Below are positions 8,549 through 15,822 of a stretch of DNA of 16,294 bases, piece by piece. This DNA comes from a bacterium (GTDB lineage: Bacteria > JAJRZV01): the NCBI GenBank assembly GCA_024275095.1, contig JAJRZV010000018.1, positions 1 to 16,294 of the forward strand. Reading direction: 5' to 3'. The notes beneath the pieces are model-generated. The model was not told the origin of the DNA. It did no database searches and was given only the letters and a program-made list of their open reading frames with translations. The stretch's first letter is position 1, and the number at the start of each line of letters is the position of its first letter. The position numbers and the translations under genes are program-made.

Positions 8549-9780
8549 AAATTGTAGAAATTGCTAACTACCACGTGCGTAAAGCAGCAAAAACACTGGG
8601 TATGTCCAAACGAATAGAGAAACTTCTCATAAATCCTCGTCGCGAGGTAAAGGTAGAACTTGTCATTGAAAAAGAAGACGGCACCCTTGGTATTTACACG
8701 GGCTATCGGGTTCAGCATTCTAACGCTCGTGGGCCGATGAAAGGAGGGCTGCGGTATCACCCCACAGTCGATGACGACGATGTAAAAGGCCTGGCATCTC
8801 TCATGACCTGGAAGACAGCGCTTGTAAATATTCCATTTGGTGGAGCAAAAGGTGGAATATCCGTCGATCCCGCGGAGCTCTCCGAAAAGGAAAAAGAGCT
8901 ACTAACGCGTAAATTCGTCGAAAGTATCCACGAAATCATTGGACCAAACATCGACATTCCTGCCCCGGACGTCAACACCAACCAGCAGGTGATGGCGTGG
9001 ATTATGGACGAATATGCAAAATTCCACGGATTCGAACCGGCGGTTGTCACCGGAAAACCTGTTGATCTCTTCGGCTCCCCTGGCAGAGAAGAAGCAACCG
9101 GCCGTGGAGTCTTCATCATTACAAAAACATACCTGGAGAGAATGGGTAAACCGGCAAACGTAACCACATTTGCCGTCCAGGGATTTGGGAACGTGGGTTC
9201 TCATGCAGCGTACTTTGCATGGGAAGCAGGTGGAAAAATTGTGGCCGTGTCTGACGTAACATGCTGTATTTACAATCCAGAAGGCATACACATTCCATCA
9301 GCTATTGAACATGTAAAAGCCCACGGTGCACTCAAAGGCTTTGACGGGGGTGAGGAAAAAGAACGCGACTTTGCACTCTACTGCGAGTGCGATGTACTTG
9401 TACCGGCAGCACTGGGTGGAGTTATCTCCACAGAAAATGCAGATGAGATAAGAGCGAAGATAATCGTTGAAGGTGCCAATGCCCCGATCACACCTTCTGC
9501 TGAGGAAACTCTGGAAAAGAAGGGCGTTCAAATTATTCCTGGAATTCTTGCTAATGCAGGAGGTGTAACAGCTTCGTACTTCGAATGGGTACAGAATATT
9601 CAGCGCTTCCGCTGGTCAAGAGAACAGGTGTACCGCGAAATGGACAAAATTATGCTCGAAGCCTACAACAAGGTGGATGAACTTGCGCGTGAGAAAAAAC
9701 TGAAGTTTCGAGAAGCAGCGTATATCATTGCACTGGGCCGCGTGGCCAAATCAGTGGCGCTCAGGGGGGTAATGGGATGA
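8545..9780 (+). CDS. gdhA: Glu/Leu/Phe/Val dehydrogenase, probably glutamate dehydrogenase
   Basis: This cytoplasmic NAD(P)-dependent enzyme interconverts glutamate (or a related amino acid) with its 2-oxo acid and ammonia. The 411-residue length is that of hexameric bacterial and archaeal GDH. Visible motifs are KGGLRYHP, the catalytic-lysine motif PFGGAKGG (Lys102), PAPDVNT, the Rossmann GFGNVG (213-218) and GANAPITPSA. Starting GTG 8545 follows GGAGGG at a six-base distance and overlaps the upstream stop. Its last codons overlap the next gene (ATGA). Substrate choice within the family cannot be fixed by eye; glutamate is favoured by length and the KGGLRYHP context. Pairing with a 2-oxo-acid ThDP enzyme suggests shared amino-acid or 2-oxo-acid metabolism. 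Confidence 0.92.
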   Translation: MKIVEIANYHVRKAAKTLGMSKRIEKLLINPRREVKVELVIEKEDGTLGIYTGYRVQHSNARGPMKGGLRYHPTVDDDDVKGLASLMTWKTALVNIPFGGAKGGISVDPAELSEKEKELLTRKFVESIHEIIGPNIDIPAPDVNTNQQVMAWIMDEYAKFHGFEPAVVTGKPVDLFGSPGREEATGRGVFIITKTYLERMGKPANVTTFAVQGFGNVGSHAAYFAWEAGGKIVAVSDVTCCIYNPEGIHIPSAIEHVKAHGALKGFDGGEEKERDFALYCECDVLVPAALGGVISTENADEIRAKIIVEGANAPITPSAEETLEKKGVQIIPGILANAGGVTASYFEWVQNIQRFRWSREQVYREMDKIMLEAYNKVDELAREKKLKFREAAYIIALGRVAKSVALRGVMG

Positions 9781-10313
9781 AATGTCGACAAAAGCTTGAA
9801 AACCAGATAAGCAAATTAAAACTCTTCAAAAACTTCCCGGCTGACCTCATCAGAGAAATCTGTGAATTCTCCACCATTGAAGAGTACAGCAAAGGGGACA
9901 TCATTTTTCATCAGGGTGATAAAGGAGATGCAATGTATATCATTCTTGAAGGCAAAGTGAAAATATGCAGGATAGAAAAAAATCAAAAAATTAAGATTGC
10001 AGAACTCTCCAAAGGCGACTTCTTCGGTGAAATGGAAATATTTGCTCCATCGCGTTCAGGTAGAGCCGGTGAAGCTGTTGCCATGACACGCACACGACTT
10101 TTAAAAATGGGCAAAAAGGAACTTCTGAAAGCCATCTCATCGGGAGCCAAGTCGGCAACACGTTTTCTTCTTACACTCAACAAAGTACTCATACAGAGAC
10201 TTCGTAAGATGGATGAAGCATATACCCGTCTATTCATTGAATATCATGGGAAAGAAAAAGTTGATGAACTACGTACACTGAAGGAAAAAATACTGAAAGA
10301 GTGGAAAATATAA
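9777..10313 (+). CDS. Cyclic-nucleotide-binding domain protein without DNA-binding domain
   Basis: This 178-residue protein has a cNMP-binding beta-roll at about residues 15-130: KGDIIFHQGDKGDAMYIILEG, then the phosphate-binding cassette FFGEMEIFAPSRSGRAGEA with Glu85 and Arg96 in the expected positions. The C-terminal part is helical and charged and lacks the CRP/FNR helix-turn-helix. It may therefore sense a nucleotide and act through protein contact, not as a transcription factor. Its ATG overlaps the gdhA stop by four bases. It converges on moaA with only nine bases between the genes once the moaA frame is corrected, and no terminator is seen. The ligand and target are unknown. Confidence 0.85.
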   Translation: MKCRQKLENQISKLKLFKNFPADLIREICEFSTIEEYSKGDIIFHQGDKGDAMYIILEGKVKICRIEKNQKIKIAELSKGDFFGEMEIFAPSRSGRAGEAVAMTRTRLLKMGKKELLKAISSGAKSATRFLLTLNKVLIQRLRKMDEAYTRLFIEYHGKEKVDELRTLKEKILKEWKI

Positions 10314-10339
10314 ATAGACCCCCTATCCACCAAGAGAAA

Positions 10340-11293
10340 TCATGCCTTTTGACGCAGAAATATGCGGTTTTTCTGCCGAGTCTCCCGGAGGCTTGAAAAA
10401 AGGCTGCGGCGGAGGGCAGCAGCAATCTCTGCATCTGATTTGCCTTCCCTCAGCATTTTCTTGATGTCAGGACCCAGCGGACTGTAAAGGCATAGCCGCA
10501 ATTTACCACTACTTGTAAGTCTGATCCGGTTGCACTCTCCACAAAAACCCCGTGTTCTGGCCGGGATAATTCCAAATTCCACCCCCGGACGCGAGGATGA
10601 GTATACGTTTTCAACACCTTGTGAACGCAGGTAAGCAACGTGTGTCACACATTTCAAAAATTTCAACATTTCCTTTTCGCTCATGTACCCCTTTTCGGAC
10701 CAGGAACTACCTGTCTCCACCAGCTCAATAAATCTGACTCTGATACCTGTCTCGCGGGAGAAATTTAAAAAATCCAGCATTTCTTCGTGATTCTGTCCCT
10801 TTATGATCACAACGTTGAGTTTTACGACCAGTCCTTCCCGACGGGCGGATTCTATTCCATTCAACACGGAATAGAGCTCGTCACGTCCTGTAATGCTTCT
10901 GTAAACCCGGCGGTTGAGAGAGTCAAGGCTCACATTAACACGTGTGACCCCAGCACGGCGAAGTTCACCAGAAAAATCCGCAAGTAAAGTTCCATTGGTT
11001 GTTAGAGTCACCTCCTGTATCCCTGGCATCGAAATTATACGCTCCATGAGCCCCACCGAGCCCTTTCGCAGAAGAGGCTCACCCCCAGTAAATCGAACGC
11101 GAGAAATACCCAGAGCTGCAAAAATCTGAATTACACGGTGAATCTCTTCAAGTGACAGCAGTTCTCCTTCGGGGGTAAAGTATTCGCACTGCGCTGCAGG
11201 AACACAGTAACGACACTTCAAATTACACCTATCAGTAAGAGATACGCGAAGGTATGTAATTGTCCTGCCCAGCCCGTCTCGCAAGTGAAGCAC
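10340..11293 (-). CDS. moaA: GTP 3',8-cyclase MoaA, frameshifted near the C terminus
   Basis: This radical-SAM enzyme catalyses the first step of Moco synthesis from GTP. The N-terminal cluster motif is C23-x3-C27-x2-C30 and the SAM motif GGEP is at 70-73. The C-terminal cluster is C251-x2-C254-x13-C268. As read, the protein ends FLRQKA at 10340 and lacks the essential Gly-Gly tail. Another frame from the A6 run at 10396-10401 (T6 in the gene) onward encodes KPHISASKG then MISLGG and stops at 10323, the canonical MoaA end. One missing T explains it; the corrected length is 323. GTG 11293 starts one base after the tatA stop. It is the last gene of the barrel-cytochrome-tatA operon. Confidence 0.93.
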   Translation of the reverse strand: MLHLRDGLGRTITYLRVSLTDRCNLKCRYCVPAAQCEYFTPEGELLSLEEIHRVIQIFAALGISRVRFTGGEPLLRKGSVGLMERIISMPGIQEVTLTTNGTLLADFSGELRRAGVTRVNVSLDSLNRRVYRSITGRDELYSVLNGIESARREGLVVKLNVVIIKGQNHEEMLDFLNFSRETGIRVRFIELVETGSSWSEKGYMSEKEMLKFLKCVTHVAYLRSQGVENVYSSSRPGVEFGIIPARTRGFCGECNRIRLTSSGKLRLCLYSPLGPDIKKMLREGKSDAEIAAALRRSLFSSLRETRQKNRIFLRQKA

Positions 11294-11294
11294 C

Positions 11295-11507
11295 CTATTC
11301 TTTCTGTTCCTCGTCAGAGGCGGAACTCACCTTTTCAGAAATGGCTTTCTTGTCCTCTCCACCACCTTCATCCACCTCTCTCACTGCTTTTCTGAATTCT
11401 CTCATGGCCTTGCCCATGCCTTTGGCAACCTCTGGCAGCTTCCTGCCTCCAAAGATAAGCAGAACAATGGCCAGAATAATGAGTAGTTCATAAAAACCCA
11501 TTGTCAT
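11295..11507 (-). CDS. tatA: Twin-arginine translocase subunit TatA/E
   Basis: This 70-residue membrane protein forms the pore-like part of the Tat system, which exports folded proteins. An N-terminal transmembrane helix (ELLIILAIVLLIF) is followed by the hinge FGGRKLPEVAKGMGKAMREF, an exact TatA pattern, and a charged tail. The ATG at 11507 follows GGAGGTGA at a normal distance; ATG 11501 is in frame but further away. It lies between the cytochrome gene (seven bases upstream) and moaA (one base downstream). No tatC or tatB is in the window. The context suggests a role in exporting a cofactor-loaded redox enzyme. Confidence 0.95.
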   Translation of the reverse strand: MTMGFYELLIILAIVLLIFGGRKLPEVAKGMGKAMREFRKAVREVDEGGGEDKKAISEKVSSASDEEQKE

Positions 11508-11513
11508 AGGATA

Positions 11514-12197
11514 TCACCTCCCATGGCAGAATATACAGGGCCGATCGGTTTCTCTATCGAGCCCCGGATGCTTCTCGACCCATCCCGGGGGATGTGGATT
11601 GCCCCCGATACCCCCTGCACGATGACATTCAATACAATCTGTTGCAGCACCTCTTTCATGACACGAAACGCATTTGACAATATTTCGTCTGGCTTCAGTT
11701 CCGTGATTCCATGCAGATGGATGAGGATTTCGAGGAAGCGACGAAGAACCTGGAGCGTAAGACTTGTCTACGTGACAATCGTAGCAATAACTCTGTGTAT
11801 GACACCGATAGCACCGGTCTGGCTCCACCTTTGCCTCAACGAAGTGCCGTGATATCCAGTTGCCTCTGTGGGGGAAGGTGCTTTCTACATCTTCAGGATT
11901 TTTCTCCGAGGGTTTCAACGATTGTTTGAAAGAGTGACACTCTGCACAGTAAGTTCGGGAATGACATTTTTCACACTCGGCTGATCTGTTGACAGCCACT
12001 GATTTATGCACATCAACCCATACAGCGTTATGAGTAAGGATTTCAAGTCTTACCGATGTGTCATGACATGTGCTGCACCGGGCTTCCTGTATAGTGTCTT
12101 TATGCTGAATGAACACCTGTCTCCGCGTGGCTGCCAGCACATTTGAAACACATGTCAAAAAGAAAAGCCAGGTGATAACGGCGATTCTCTCTTTCAT
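11514..12197 (-). CDS. Periplasmic octaheme c-type cytochrome
   Basis: A 227-residue exported cytochrome has a signal peptide ending near NVLA. It has eight CxxCH heme-c sites: CSTCH, CEKCH, CAECH, CYRCH, CYDCH, CVSCH, CIECH and CIFCH. Two close pairs (CEKCH/CAECH and CYRCH/CYDCH) suggest stacked heme pairs. Many further histidines could give bis-His ligation. ATG 12197 is chosen; an in-frame TTG at 12209 would add four residues. It starts just after the beta-barrel gene ends (gap under 20 bases) and is followed by tatA. The function is probably electron transfer in the periplasm or through the adjacent barrel; no catalytic family is recognised. Confidence 0.9.
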   Translation of the reverse strand: MKERIAVITWLFFLTCVSNVLAATRRQVFIQHKDTIQEARCSTCHDTSVRLEILTHNAVWVDVHKSVAVNRSAECEKCHSRTYCAECHSFKQSLKPSEKNPEDVESTFPHRGNWISRHFVEAKVEPDRCYRCHTQSYCYDCHVDKSYAPGSSSLPRNPHPSAWNHGTEARRNIVKCVSCHERGAATDCIECHRAGGIGGNPHPPGWVEKHPGLDRETDRPCIFCHGR

Positions 12198-12212
12198 CTT
12201 CAAGACCAACTC

Positions 12213-13475
12213 TCACAATTCATACGTAAGTTTTCCCATTCCCTTAATTCTCCACGTATATTCTACACCCCCGGCAATACTTACAGCTGCTGTAATTTTT
12301 ACATTTTCAACCAACTCGTATTTTAACGAAATGGTAGATTCATAACTCCAGAGCATATCCTCACGAACTTCCTCATCAAAAACATCCCACACTGTATCCA
12401 CGTTCCCTTGCAAGGAAGTCAGGATAAGTGCACTGGCAGCAAAACGAAGTTCCGTATAACTGGTGTCGGAACGCAACCTCGAAGCATGAAGTAACAGCAG
12501 GTATCTCTCCCCGTCAAAATAGCGTTTCGCCTTTATATAAATACGATGAGCTGCGGTTCGGCTGTCCGCATACATCAAAAATTCATACCCTGTGCCCACC
12601 ATCACACCTGACACCTCGAACAATCCGGAAACTTTCAAATTTGCGTAATCACCTGATGCAAACACACTTAAAACAGACTGATTCCCGAGAAAACTCATTG
12701 CACTTTTCGTCCCTGCCTCTACAGCAAACAGTTTCCACATTCGTGAAGCAGGGTAATATGAAAATGTCACAGATGAATCATGCAGTCTGCTGTAAGTAAT
12801 ATCATAACTCAAATATCCGGTAATATTCATCGAAGGAGAAATATGAAACCAGCCGTCAAATCCGAGCCTGTTAAAATTCACGTCTTCACGTTCTTTTTGC
12901 AAAAAATACGAAACCCCCAATTCTGCCCTGGTCCCCCACCGGTGACCTGCTCTAAATCCGGCAAGCCAGTCACCTTTGCGTGACCCATCCATATCATTGA
13001 GAGGAATGCCCGTGTAAAGATTTATCGAAGTTCCACCTTTTGTGCTGAACGATACATATCCACCATCCATCTGGAGTGTAAGAGGGGCTGCACCTGCATT
13101 AATCAGCATGCGTCCCACCTTCGTATCCAAACGGGCATCACTGCTTCGGAAACGCACATATCCGTAAAGGAGACTACCCTTCCAGCGCTCTTCCTTCCAC
13201 CAGTCCCACGTTTCCACTTTCGCCCAGCCGGAAAAGACAACTTCGAGTCCCTTCACCCCAACATCCAGTGCTTCAATATCAGCAAACTCGTAAAGAGGAG
13301 CAAGGGTCGCTTCAACATTACCTCTGACATCCGGATAAACGGTAACGATCGTGCGTAATCTTGTGTGCAGAGAATAAGCACTGCTACTTGCAGGAACTCC
13401 GACGGATAATACTGCAAAAAAATATAAAAAGAAAAACACTCCTCTTGAGCACATAGACGTAAAGGAGCGATTCAC
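12213..13475 (-). CDS. Predicted outer-membrane beta-barrel protein
   Basis: The 420-residue protein has a signal peptide ending around ASSSA-Y (33/34). It is followed by alternating polar/hydrophobic strands with many aromatic residues throughout (LYGYVRFRS, GYLSYDITYS, VTFSYYPAS, YLLLLHASR), as in a barrel. The C terminus LTYEL is a weak beta signal. GTG 13475 follows AGGAGG at a suitable distance. It heads an operon with the octaheme cytochrome, tatA and moaA. No porin family is recognised. The neighbouring cytochrome raises the possibility of a porin-cytochrome electron conduit, but a plain porin is equally compatible with the sequence alone. Confidence 0.7.
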   Translation of the reverse strand: MNRSFTSMCSRGVFFFLYFFAVLSVGVPASSSAYSLHTRLRTIVTVYPDVRGNVEATLAPLYEFADIEALDVGVKGLEVVFSGWAKVETWDWWKEERWKGSLLYGYVRFRSSDARLDTKVGRMLINAGAAPLTLQMDGGYVSFSTKGGTSINLYTGIPLNDMDGSRKGDWLAGFRAGHRWGTRAELGVSYFLQKEREDVNFNRLGFDGWFHISPSMNITGYLSYDITYSRLHDSSVTFSYYPASRMWKLFAVEAGTKSAMSFLGNQSVLSVFASGDYANLKVSGLFEVSGVMVGTGYEFLMYADSRTAAHRIYIKAKRYFDGERYLLLLHASRLRSDTSYTELRFAASALILTSLQGNVDTVWDVFDEEVREDMLWSYESTISLKYELVENVKITAAVSIAGGVEYTWRIKGMGKLTYEL

Positions 13476-13608: not shown

Positions 13609-14214
13609 ATGAAAACAGGTGTGCATATCGCCGGTGTGGTCCTTGTTGGTGGCAAAGGTAAACGTATGGGATGTGACAAACTATCCCTGGTTATTCGAGG
13701 GCATCGTGTGCTGCAGTACGTGGTAAACGAGCTTGCACAGGTCTGTGAGGAAATCATATTCGCGGGACGCAGTGGAGGACCCCGGATCACCTGCCGCAAG
13801 CCCACAAACTGGATACCTGATATCATACCGGAACGCGGGCCGCTCGCTGGAGCAGTCTCGGCTATGAAACATTCAAGAGCGCTCTGGTTTTTGATAATCC
13901 CATGTGATATGCCATTTTTAAATGCAGCGGTATTTCGACGCTATCTCGCTGAAAAAGAAACAGCCTCTGTTATTGTTTCTCCGTTCCGCGGTTTTCCTGT
14001 ACTGATACACCATTCAGTATTACCAGTGCTGGAGAAAGCCCTGAAAATGGAAAGTCTTTGCTTTTTTGACGTAATATTTCAGGCTTCCTCCGTACGAATG
14101 CTGTCCAGGGAGAAACTTGCAGACCTCGGGAATCTCGATGTAATCTTCTGTAATATTAACACACCTGAAGATCTTTCATTTGCAGAACAGGTGTTCACGT
14201 CCGTGTGGATGTAA
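13609..14214 (+). CDS. mobA: Molybdenum cofactor guanylyltransferase MobA
   Basis: This cytoplasmic enzyme transfers GMP from GTP to Mo-molybdopterin to make the bis-MGD form used by DMSO-reductase-family enzymes. The 201-residue length fits. The nucleotide-binding loop LVGGKGKRMGCDK is at 12-24, followed by IIPERGPLAGAV and PCDMPF, all standard for the family. ATG 13609 is preceded by a weak GAAAG. It starts the plus-strand Moco cluster, with moaD six bases downstream. Its presence implies that bis-MGD enzymes are encoded elsewhere in this genome. Confidence 0.93.
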   Translation: MKTGVHIAGVVLVGGKGKRMGCDKLSLVIRGHRVLQYVVNELAQVCEEIIFAGRSGGPRITCRKPTNWIPDIIPERGPLAGAVSAMKHSRALWFLIIPCDMPFLNAAVFRRYLAEKETASVIVSPFRGFPVLIHHSVLPVLEKALKMESLCFFDVIFQASSVRMLSREKLADLGNLDVIFCNINTPEDLSFAEQVFTSVWM

Positions 14215-14220
14215 ATTCCA

Positions 14221-14463
14221 ATGAAAGTAAAAGTTAAATATTTCGGCATATTAAAAGATATTACCGGTGTTCCAGAAGAAACCCTTGTCACGAATACAGC
14301 AACCATTGAAGAGCTGCTTCGCTCCCTTGCAGCACGTTATCCCCTGCTGGCACAACATATAGAATCAGTACGTGTTGCTCTCAATGGTCGGCTGGTGGAT
14401 AAAAGCAACTCTGTTGAAAACGATGGTGAAATAGCACTGCTTCCTCCTGTAAGCGGAGGCTAA
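14221..14463 (+). CDS. moaD: Molybdopterin synthase sulfur-carrier subunit MoaD
   Basis: This 80-residue ubiquitin-fold sulfur carrier donates sulfur to cPMP from a C-terminal thiocarboxylate. The protein ends PPVSGG, the required Gly-Gly tail, and NGRLVDKSN plus IALLPPVSGG match the family. No good Shine-Dalgarno precedes ATG 14221, so it may be translated by coupling to mobA. The two terminal glycine codons (GGA GGC) also provide the Shine-Dalgarno of moaE, two bases after the stop. Confidence 0.94.
   Translation: MKVKVKYFGILKDITGVPEETLVTNTATIEELLRSLAARYPLLAQHIESVRVALNGRLVDKSNSVENDGEIALLPPVSGG
14455..14459 (+). promoter_or_regulatory. moaE ribosome binding site inside the moaD Gly-Gly codons
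   Basis: GGAGG is formed by the last two codons of moaD (GGA GGC), six bases before the moaE ATG at 14466. The site fixes the moaE start and ties translation of the two synthase subunits together. Confidence 0.7.
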
Positions 14464-14465
14464 AA

Positions 14466-14897
14466 ATGGGAAAAATCACTCGCAATCCCATAAACATTCA
14501 AAAAGTTATAGAAGACGTGTCACTACCTCACTCAGGGGCGGTGGCTGTATTTACCGGGACAGTGAGAAATCACGACCGCGGTAGAAAAGTGGCTTATCTC
14601 GAATACGATTGCTATGAAACAATGGCTGATGAAGAACTGATCAAAATTGAAAAAGAATTAAGTAAAAAATACAGACTCAATGCCTGTTGTATCATTCATC
14701 GGATTGGTCAGCTCAGGGTCGGAGAAATCAGCCTTATAGTCGCTGTATCTTCCGACCACAGGAAAGAAGCCTTTGCTGCTCTTTCCGAAGCAGTGGAGAT
14801 GGTAAAAAAACGTGTACCCATATGGAAGAAAGAATATTTTACCGATGGCACGTCTGTGTGGATTAATGGAGAAAAGCTGGAGGTCGGAAATGATTGA
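14466..14897 (+). CDS. moaE: Molybdopterin synthase catalytic subunit MoaE
   Basis: With MoaD this 143-residue cytoplasmic protein converts cPMP to molybdopterin dithiolene. Visible family motifs are GAVAVFTGTVRNHDRGRKV, YLEYDCYETMA, HRIGQLRVGE and the conserved VPIWKKEYFTDG with its active-site lysines. The length is normal. It follows moaD by two bases with its own GGAGG, and its last codons overlap the moaC-mogA start by eight bases. Confidence 0.95.
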   Translation: MGKITRNPINIQKVIEDVSLPHSGAVAVFTGTVRNHDRGRKVAYLEYDCYETMADEELIKIEKELSKKYRLNACCIIHRIGQLRVGEISLIVAVSSDHRKEAFAALSEAVEMVKKRVPIWKKEYFTDGTSVWINGEKLEVGND

Positions 14898-15822
14898 CAT
14901 CAGTAACAAATACAACACCCTTCGGTTTGCCAGAGCAAAAGCCCTCGTAGAATTATCGCTTGATACAATGGAGAAAATCCGTACCGGAAACCTTCCCAAA
15001 CAGGACCCGCTTGCAGTCGCCCGTGTCGCAGCCATACAGGCAGCAAAAAAGACATGGGAAATTGTACCTTACTGTCACCCTATACCACTCGATTGGGTTA
15101 ATGTAGAGTTTGACATAACCGGGAATACCATTTGCATCATCGCTGAAGTAAAAGCCGTCTACAAAACAGGAGTGGAAATGGAAGCGATGACAGCTGCCTC
15201 TGTGGCAGCTATTACACTGTACGACATGCTCAAACCTGTGGATGCAGACATTGTTATCCGCGAGATCCGGCTGGAAGAAAAGAAAGGGGGTAAATCTGAT
15301 TACACAGACACCTATGACAGATCGCTCACAGCGGCTGTTATTGTTGTGTCAGATTCAGTTTCCGCGGGTGAAAAAGAAGATCGGGCAGGAAAAGCCGTAA
15401 TAGCAGAGTTAAAAAAATACAACCTGCACATAGAAGGTTACGATATTGTACCCGACGAAAAAGAATTAATAGAAGCCGCTATAAAAAAGTATGCAGATGA
15501 GAAAAAAGTGGATATGATTCTCACATGTGGTGGTACGGGCCTGGGCCCGAGGGATGTGACTGTTGACGTGACTGCAAAGCTTATCGAGCGGGAGGTACCC
15601 GGAATCAGCGAGACTATTAGAAAATACGGAACAGAACGCACACCTTACGCCATGCTTTCAAGGGCCATAGCCGGCGTGAGAGGTCGAAGTCTTATCGTAA
15701 ATCTTCCCGGAAGCACCAGAGGCGCCACAGAAAGCATCCAGGCCATCATGCCGGGAGTGCTGCACATATTTCACATGATGGCAGGTCGCGGGCACAATAA
15801 AAACACAGGAGAAAAAGAATGA
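14890..15822 (+). CDS. Bifunctional MoaC-MogA/MoaB fusion (cPMP synthase plus molybdopterin adenylyltransferase)
   Basis: The 310-residue protein fuses two Moco enzymes. Residues 1 to about 140 are MoaC, which acts after MoaA to form cPMP: VARVAAIQAAKKT, PYCHPI with its catalytic His, KTGVEMEAMTAASVAA, YDMLK with the catalytic Asp and Lys, and GGKS. Residues from about 150 are MogA/MoaB: VVSDSVSAGEKEDRAG, TCGGTGLGPRDVT and NLPGS, which bind molybdopterin and ATP. MoaC-MogA fusions are known. The true start is ATG 14890: GGAGG lies six bases before it and MIDIS is the normal MoaC N terminus. Upstream in-frame starts fall inside moaE. Its end overlaps the next gene (ATGA). Confidence 0.94.
   Translation: MIDISNKYNTLRFARAKALVELSLDTMEKIRTGNLPKQDPLAVARVAAIQAAKKTWEIVPYCHPIPLDWVNVEFDITGNTICIIAEVKAVYKTGVEMEAMTAASVAAITLYDMLKPVDADIVIREIRLEEKKGGKSDYTDTYDRSLTAAVIVVSDSVSAGEKEDRAGKAVIAELKKYNLHIEGYDIVPDEKELIEAAIKKYADEKKVDMILTCGGTGLGPRDVTVDVTAKLIEREVPGISETIRKYGTERTPYAMLSRAIAGVRGRSLIVNLPGSTRGATESIQAIMPGVLHIFHMMAGRGHNKNTGEKE

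Follow-up and report, generated by a model that had tools for sequence, protein, structure and literature searches.

The barrel gene and the adjoining eight-heme cytochrome gene of a four-gene bacterial operon probably encode a two-gene conduit of the porin-cytochrome (Pcc) type, a reading to which we assign a probability of about 0.78; the remaining genes, tatA and moaA, are in this reading co-transcribed neighbours without a specific role in the conduit. By analogy with known systems, the most likely role of the pair is to carry electrons across the outer membrane. Assignment to the Pcc kind follows from the relatives of the pair in named genomes, where the solo pairs match the Anaeromyxobacter clusters of Shi et al. 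2014. The window, i.e. the entire stretch of DNA analysed, is a contig of 16,294 nucleotides.

Predicted features of the operon and of the divergent genes beside it, in window positions
Feature	Position	Strand	Basis
420-aa outer-membrane beta-barrel, Pcc-porin type, Sec signal peptide	12213..13475	-	homology and weak model
8-heme periplasmic c-type cytochrome, Sec signal peptide	11514..12197	-	8 CXXCH, Cytochrome_C7
TatA, twin-arginine translocase subunit	11295..11507	-	PF02416, TIGR01411
MoaA, GTP 3',8-cyclase	10340..11293	-	TIGR02666
mobA, moaD, moaE, fused moaC-moaB (divergent, context only)	13609..15822	+	Pfam, NCBIfam

The four operon genes (barrel, cytochrome with eight CXXCH motifs, TatA and MoaA) all lie on the minus strand and are packed as closely as the first-pass annotation had claimed, with gaps of one to about fifteen bases: about 15 between barrel and cytochrome, 6 between cytochrome and tatA, and 1 between tatA and moaA. 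The barrel reading frame starts with GTG, preceded by AAAGGAGGAGG. The cytochrome starts with ATG at 12197, and an alternative TTG would shift this start to 12209. The tatA ribosome-binding site and the stop codon of the cytochrome gene overlap (GGGAGGTGA), and the packing therefore looks translationally coupled. The candidate promoter proposed ahead of the operon is not supported by a consensus scan, which finds no sigma-70-type site upstream of the barrel. Elsewhere in the window, genes for tRNA-Leu and tRNA-Lys occupy positions 2061-2145 and 2247-2322 of the minus strand.

The 420-aa barrel protein matches no Pfam family, and its putative assignment draws on homology and a low-confidence structural model. 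The AlphaFold model is rich in strands, with about 20-22 of them at that low confidence (pLDDT 56.5, pTM 0.47). The best Foldseek matches of this weak model are OprD-type porins at a TM of about 0.4, which we judged generic and did not use to assign a family. A profile built from the window barrel and six relatives matches the same-strand reading frame just before the cytochrome in 20 sampled genomes that had not contributed to it, and a profile-profile comparison joins the window barrel to those of more distant relatives (98.6%, E 5e-16); against the PDB, the barrel profile has no match at E<=1. Both the barrel and the cytochrome carry Sec-type signals, with no twin-arginine before the hydrophobic stretch.

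The cytochrome contains exactly eight CXXCH motifs and matches Cytochrome_C7 weakly (1.1e-7). Eight additional histidines are invariant in its alignment with relatives, so that a second ligand is available and bis-His ligation of all eight hemes is possible. The AlphaFold model has a pLDDT of 42, a low value that may be expected of a protein modelled without hemes. In alignments with 13-heme relatives, the window cytochrome corresponds to their eight C-terminal hemes and is missing the five N-terminal ones. Alignments indicate a modular build for this Pcc-like cytochrome family, in which the N- and C-terminal heme segments are optional: a five-heme core is shared, three C-terminal hemes are added here, and about five N-terminal hemes are added in the long forms. 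At four other loci (L074, L077, L078 and L080, about 1370-2030), the cytochromes retain no more than the five-heme core of the middle, and the next gene in each case is lipoprotein-like, with 5-10 hemes.

Sequence comparison identifies the barrel and the cytochrome as a genuine, conserved homologous pair. A first search of 59 sampled genomes revealed cytochrome relatives in two lineages, at 39-41% identity, and in both of them the barrel directly precedes the cytochrome. With a cytochrome profile, relatives are found at E<=1e-12 in 56 of 386 sampled genomes. The reading frame ahead of the cytochrome on the same strand encodes 400-480 aa in most of the fetched neighbourhoods, and many of these frames are unmatched by the barrel profile. 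The main clades are common to the barrel and cytochrome trees, and the window sequences form a deep unplaced branch in both. A search of the window genome for a second copy of the pair found none. Named genomes gave no match when scanned with the single cytochrome as a query; ten named loci were recovered with a closer cytochrome alignment. Three of these loci (L109-L111) come from uncultured Anaeromyxobacter, and each is a solo pair whose cytochrome has 12 hemes and 339-340 aa. Across the survey, which comprises a few dozen loci, some ending at contig edges, solo pairs invariably carry 12-14 hemes, and a further multiheme gene lies no more than 3 kb from each of the short cytochromes (5-7 hemes). 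The exception is the window pair, which combines eight hemes with the lack of a multiheme companion on the 16.3-kb contig.

Pcc barrels have 18-22 predicted strands and periplasmic Pcc cytochromes 5-14 hemes, and the Pcc clusters of Anaeromyxobacter consist of two genes, without an outer-membrane cytochrome, their cytochrome having 12 or 14 hemes and 338-344 aa (Shi et al. 2014, PMC4245776). In the window, a barrel gene, its fold indicated by homology and the weak model, adjoins the gene of a periplasmic multiheme cytochrome whose eight hemes fall within this range. Profiles join the window pair to the uncultured Anaeromyxobacter pairs, which we equated with the described Pcc clusters by gene number, hemes and length. 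An outer-membrane cytochrome gene is missing from the cluster within the window, where the eight-heme cytochrome is the only multiheme reading frame, in agreement with the initial remark that no outer-surface cytochrome follows. Such a gene is a feature of most Pcc members but not all, and since two-gene members are known, its absence is not disqualifying.

Among the known systems, the Group IV two-gene Pcc of Anaeromyxobacter (PMC4245776) shares with the window the order of a barrel of similar size followed by a homologous multiheme cytochrome, as well as the absence of an outer-membrane cytochrome gene. The window cytochrome differs from its 12-14-heme, 338-344-aa counterparts in having 8 hemes in about 200 mature residues and in missing the N-terminal heme segment. 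The resemblance to the Omb/Oma pair pointed out by the first-pass annotation proved a good lead to the Pcc kind; the nearest match in make-up is with these two-gene Anaeromyxobacter clusters. Compared by description, OmbB-OmaB-OmcB of Geobacter sulfurreducens also unites a porin with an 8-heme periplasmic cytochrome, whereas no OmcB-like surface cytochrome follows the window pair. ExtABCD and ExtEFG of Geobacter (PMC6148476), likewise compared by description, unite a multiheme cytochrome of the periplasm with a barrel predicted to have 18-21 strands; there, however, the periplasmic cytochromes have 12 hemes and are accompanied by lipoprotein cytochromes. MtrAB, MtoAB and PioAB consist of a barrel and a periplasmic cytochrome able to work without a surface cytochrome, and the window barrel is far smaller than the 26-28 strands of the MtrB type. 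Membership in the MtrAB/PioAB group was rejected: the barrel has no Pfam match, and no MtrA or MtrB chain occurs among the PDB profile matches. The initial impression of an undescribed arrangement holds for the four-gene order, but not for the pair itself, which has a described precedent in the two-gene Pcc of Anaeromyxobacter. Among the papers searched, none links porin-cytochrome clusters with tatA and moaA.

In the proposed mechanism, the cytochrome would be exported by Sec and loaded with eight bis-His hemes, and would act, inside or beneath the barrel, as an insulated wire along which electrons would pass between periplasmic carriers and the outside. We infer by analogy that the cytochrome inserts into the barrel and transfers electrons, and in which direction it does so. 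The window genome is rich in multiheme genes: it contains 428 CXXCH codon motifs, whereas the reversed pattern occurs 139 times. An operon on contig C34 (L045, 2013-8896) encodes an 8-heme cytochrome, an Fe-S protein, a Rieske protein, cytochrome b, and 9- and 11-heme cytochromes, and is a possible inner-membrane, quinol-oxidising electron source. The genome also encodes a small 4-heme cytochrome, another possible source of electrons.

It is quite conceivable, at somewhat under even odds, that the pair is half of a conduit and that a surface multiheme cytochrome from an unlinked locus completes it, in the manner of Geobacter OmbB-OmaB-OmcB. This would still be a Pcc-type conduit, i.e. a version of the preferred reading, and the confidences of the two overlap. 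It agrees with the companion multiheme genes that accompany all short cytochromes of the family, and a partner could come, for example, from contig C108. A cluster of about 20 kb on this contig (L043 11563 to L044 13032) encodes multiheme and NHL propeller proteins and a 565-aa possible barrel; its proteins of 1428 and 1429 aa have 5 and 13 hemes. The cluster is a candidate surface electron-transfer locus and could hold surface partners of the pair. The missing companion on the contig of the pair counts against a half conduit, as does the absence of a known link between C108 and the pair locus. That the pair is a complete, stand-alone eight-heme wire across the outer membrane, the shortest solo Pcc member and one that works with no surface cytochrome, is less likely than not. 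In the absence of a surface cytochrome, its eight hemes are below those of any surveyed solo pair, and the wire might not span the membrane alone.

Another, improbable explanation is that the two genes are adjacent but their products form no conduit: the barrel would be a common porin or transporter, and the cytochrome an electron carrier acting separately in the periplasm. The OprD-type porins retrieved with the weak model are in its favour, but barrel folds generically resemble one another. It is further opposed by the adjacency of the two genes, which is kept across many lineages with matching clades in the trees, and by the best-known relatives of the pair, which are proposed conduits.

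The two downstream genes are probably passengers that share the transcription of the conduit genes but not their function. TatA matches PF02416 (7e-18) and TIGR01411 above its cut-off, and MoaA reaches 318.9 bits with TIGR02666 against a cut-off of 284. About 40 neighbourhoods of relatives, all outside the phylum of the window, contain no tatA or moaA orthologue near the pair, the sole moaA match (L020) being weak (25% over 170 aa, E 3e-6). The four-gene order, whose conservation had been put forward as a check, is accordingly not kept, and the pair and the Moco genes are separable in these other phyla. A conserved tatA-moaA gene pair was also rejected: tatA does not adjoin moaA at any of 29 other, distant moaA loci. 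MoaA probably belongs with the divergent Moco genes. TatC is encoded on contig C34, close to likely Tat clients (the Rieske protein and a ferredoxin-type protein), and the genome contains three TatA/B-like genes. It also has one gene of the AOR family (tungsten aldehyde oxidoreductase, cytoplasmic-type), a family known as cytoplasmic. This only AOR-family gene found (L051 709-2697, contig C88) has one in-frame TAG inside a conserved motif, which may reflect misassembly, a disrupted gene or recoding; the gene adjoins a moeA-like part, a MoaD-like gene and a cNMP-binding paralogue of window 9777-10313. The earlier proposal of an exported Mo or W enzyme that is served by TatA and MoaA and supplies the pair with electrons is highly improbable despite the operon packing and the divergent Moco genes, given that PF00384, PF02738 and PF00174 proteins are all missing from the 97%-complete genome, the single AOR belongs to a cytoplasmic family, Tat has other likely clients and further TatA/B-like genes, tatA and moaA show no synteny in relatives, and neither the barrel nor the cytochrome has a Tat signal.

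Read as a Pcc-type conduit, the pair adds to the Pcc family a bacterial phylum represented by a single sampled genome, and depicts the family as wide and modular. It also cautions against taking operon neighbours such as tatA and moaA for functional partners. A stand-alone pair, if true, would go against the pattern of the survey, in which a solo pair has 12-14 hemes and a short cytochrome depends on a partner. If the eight-heme pair works alone, it would give a lower bound on natural heme wires that span a membrane, and would make a small test system.
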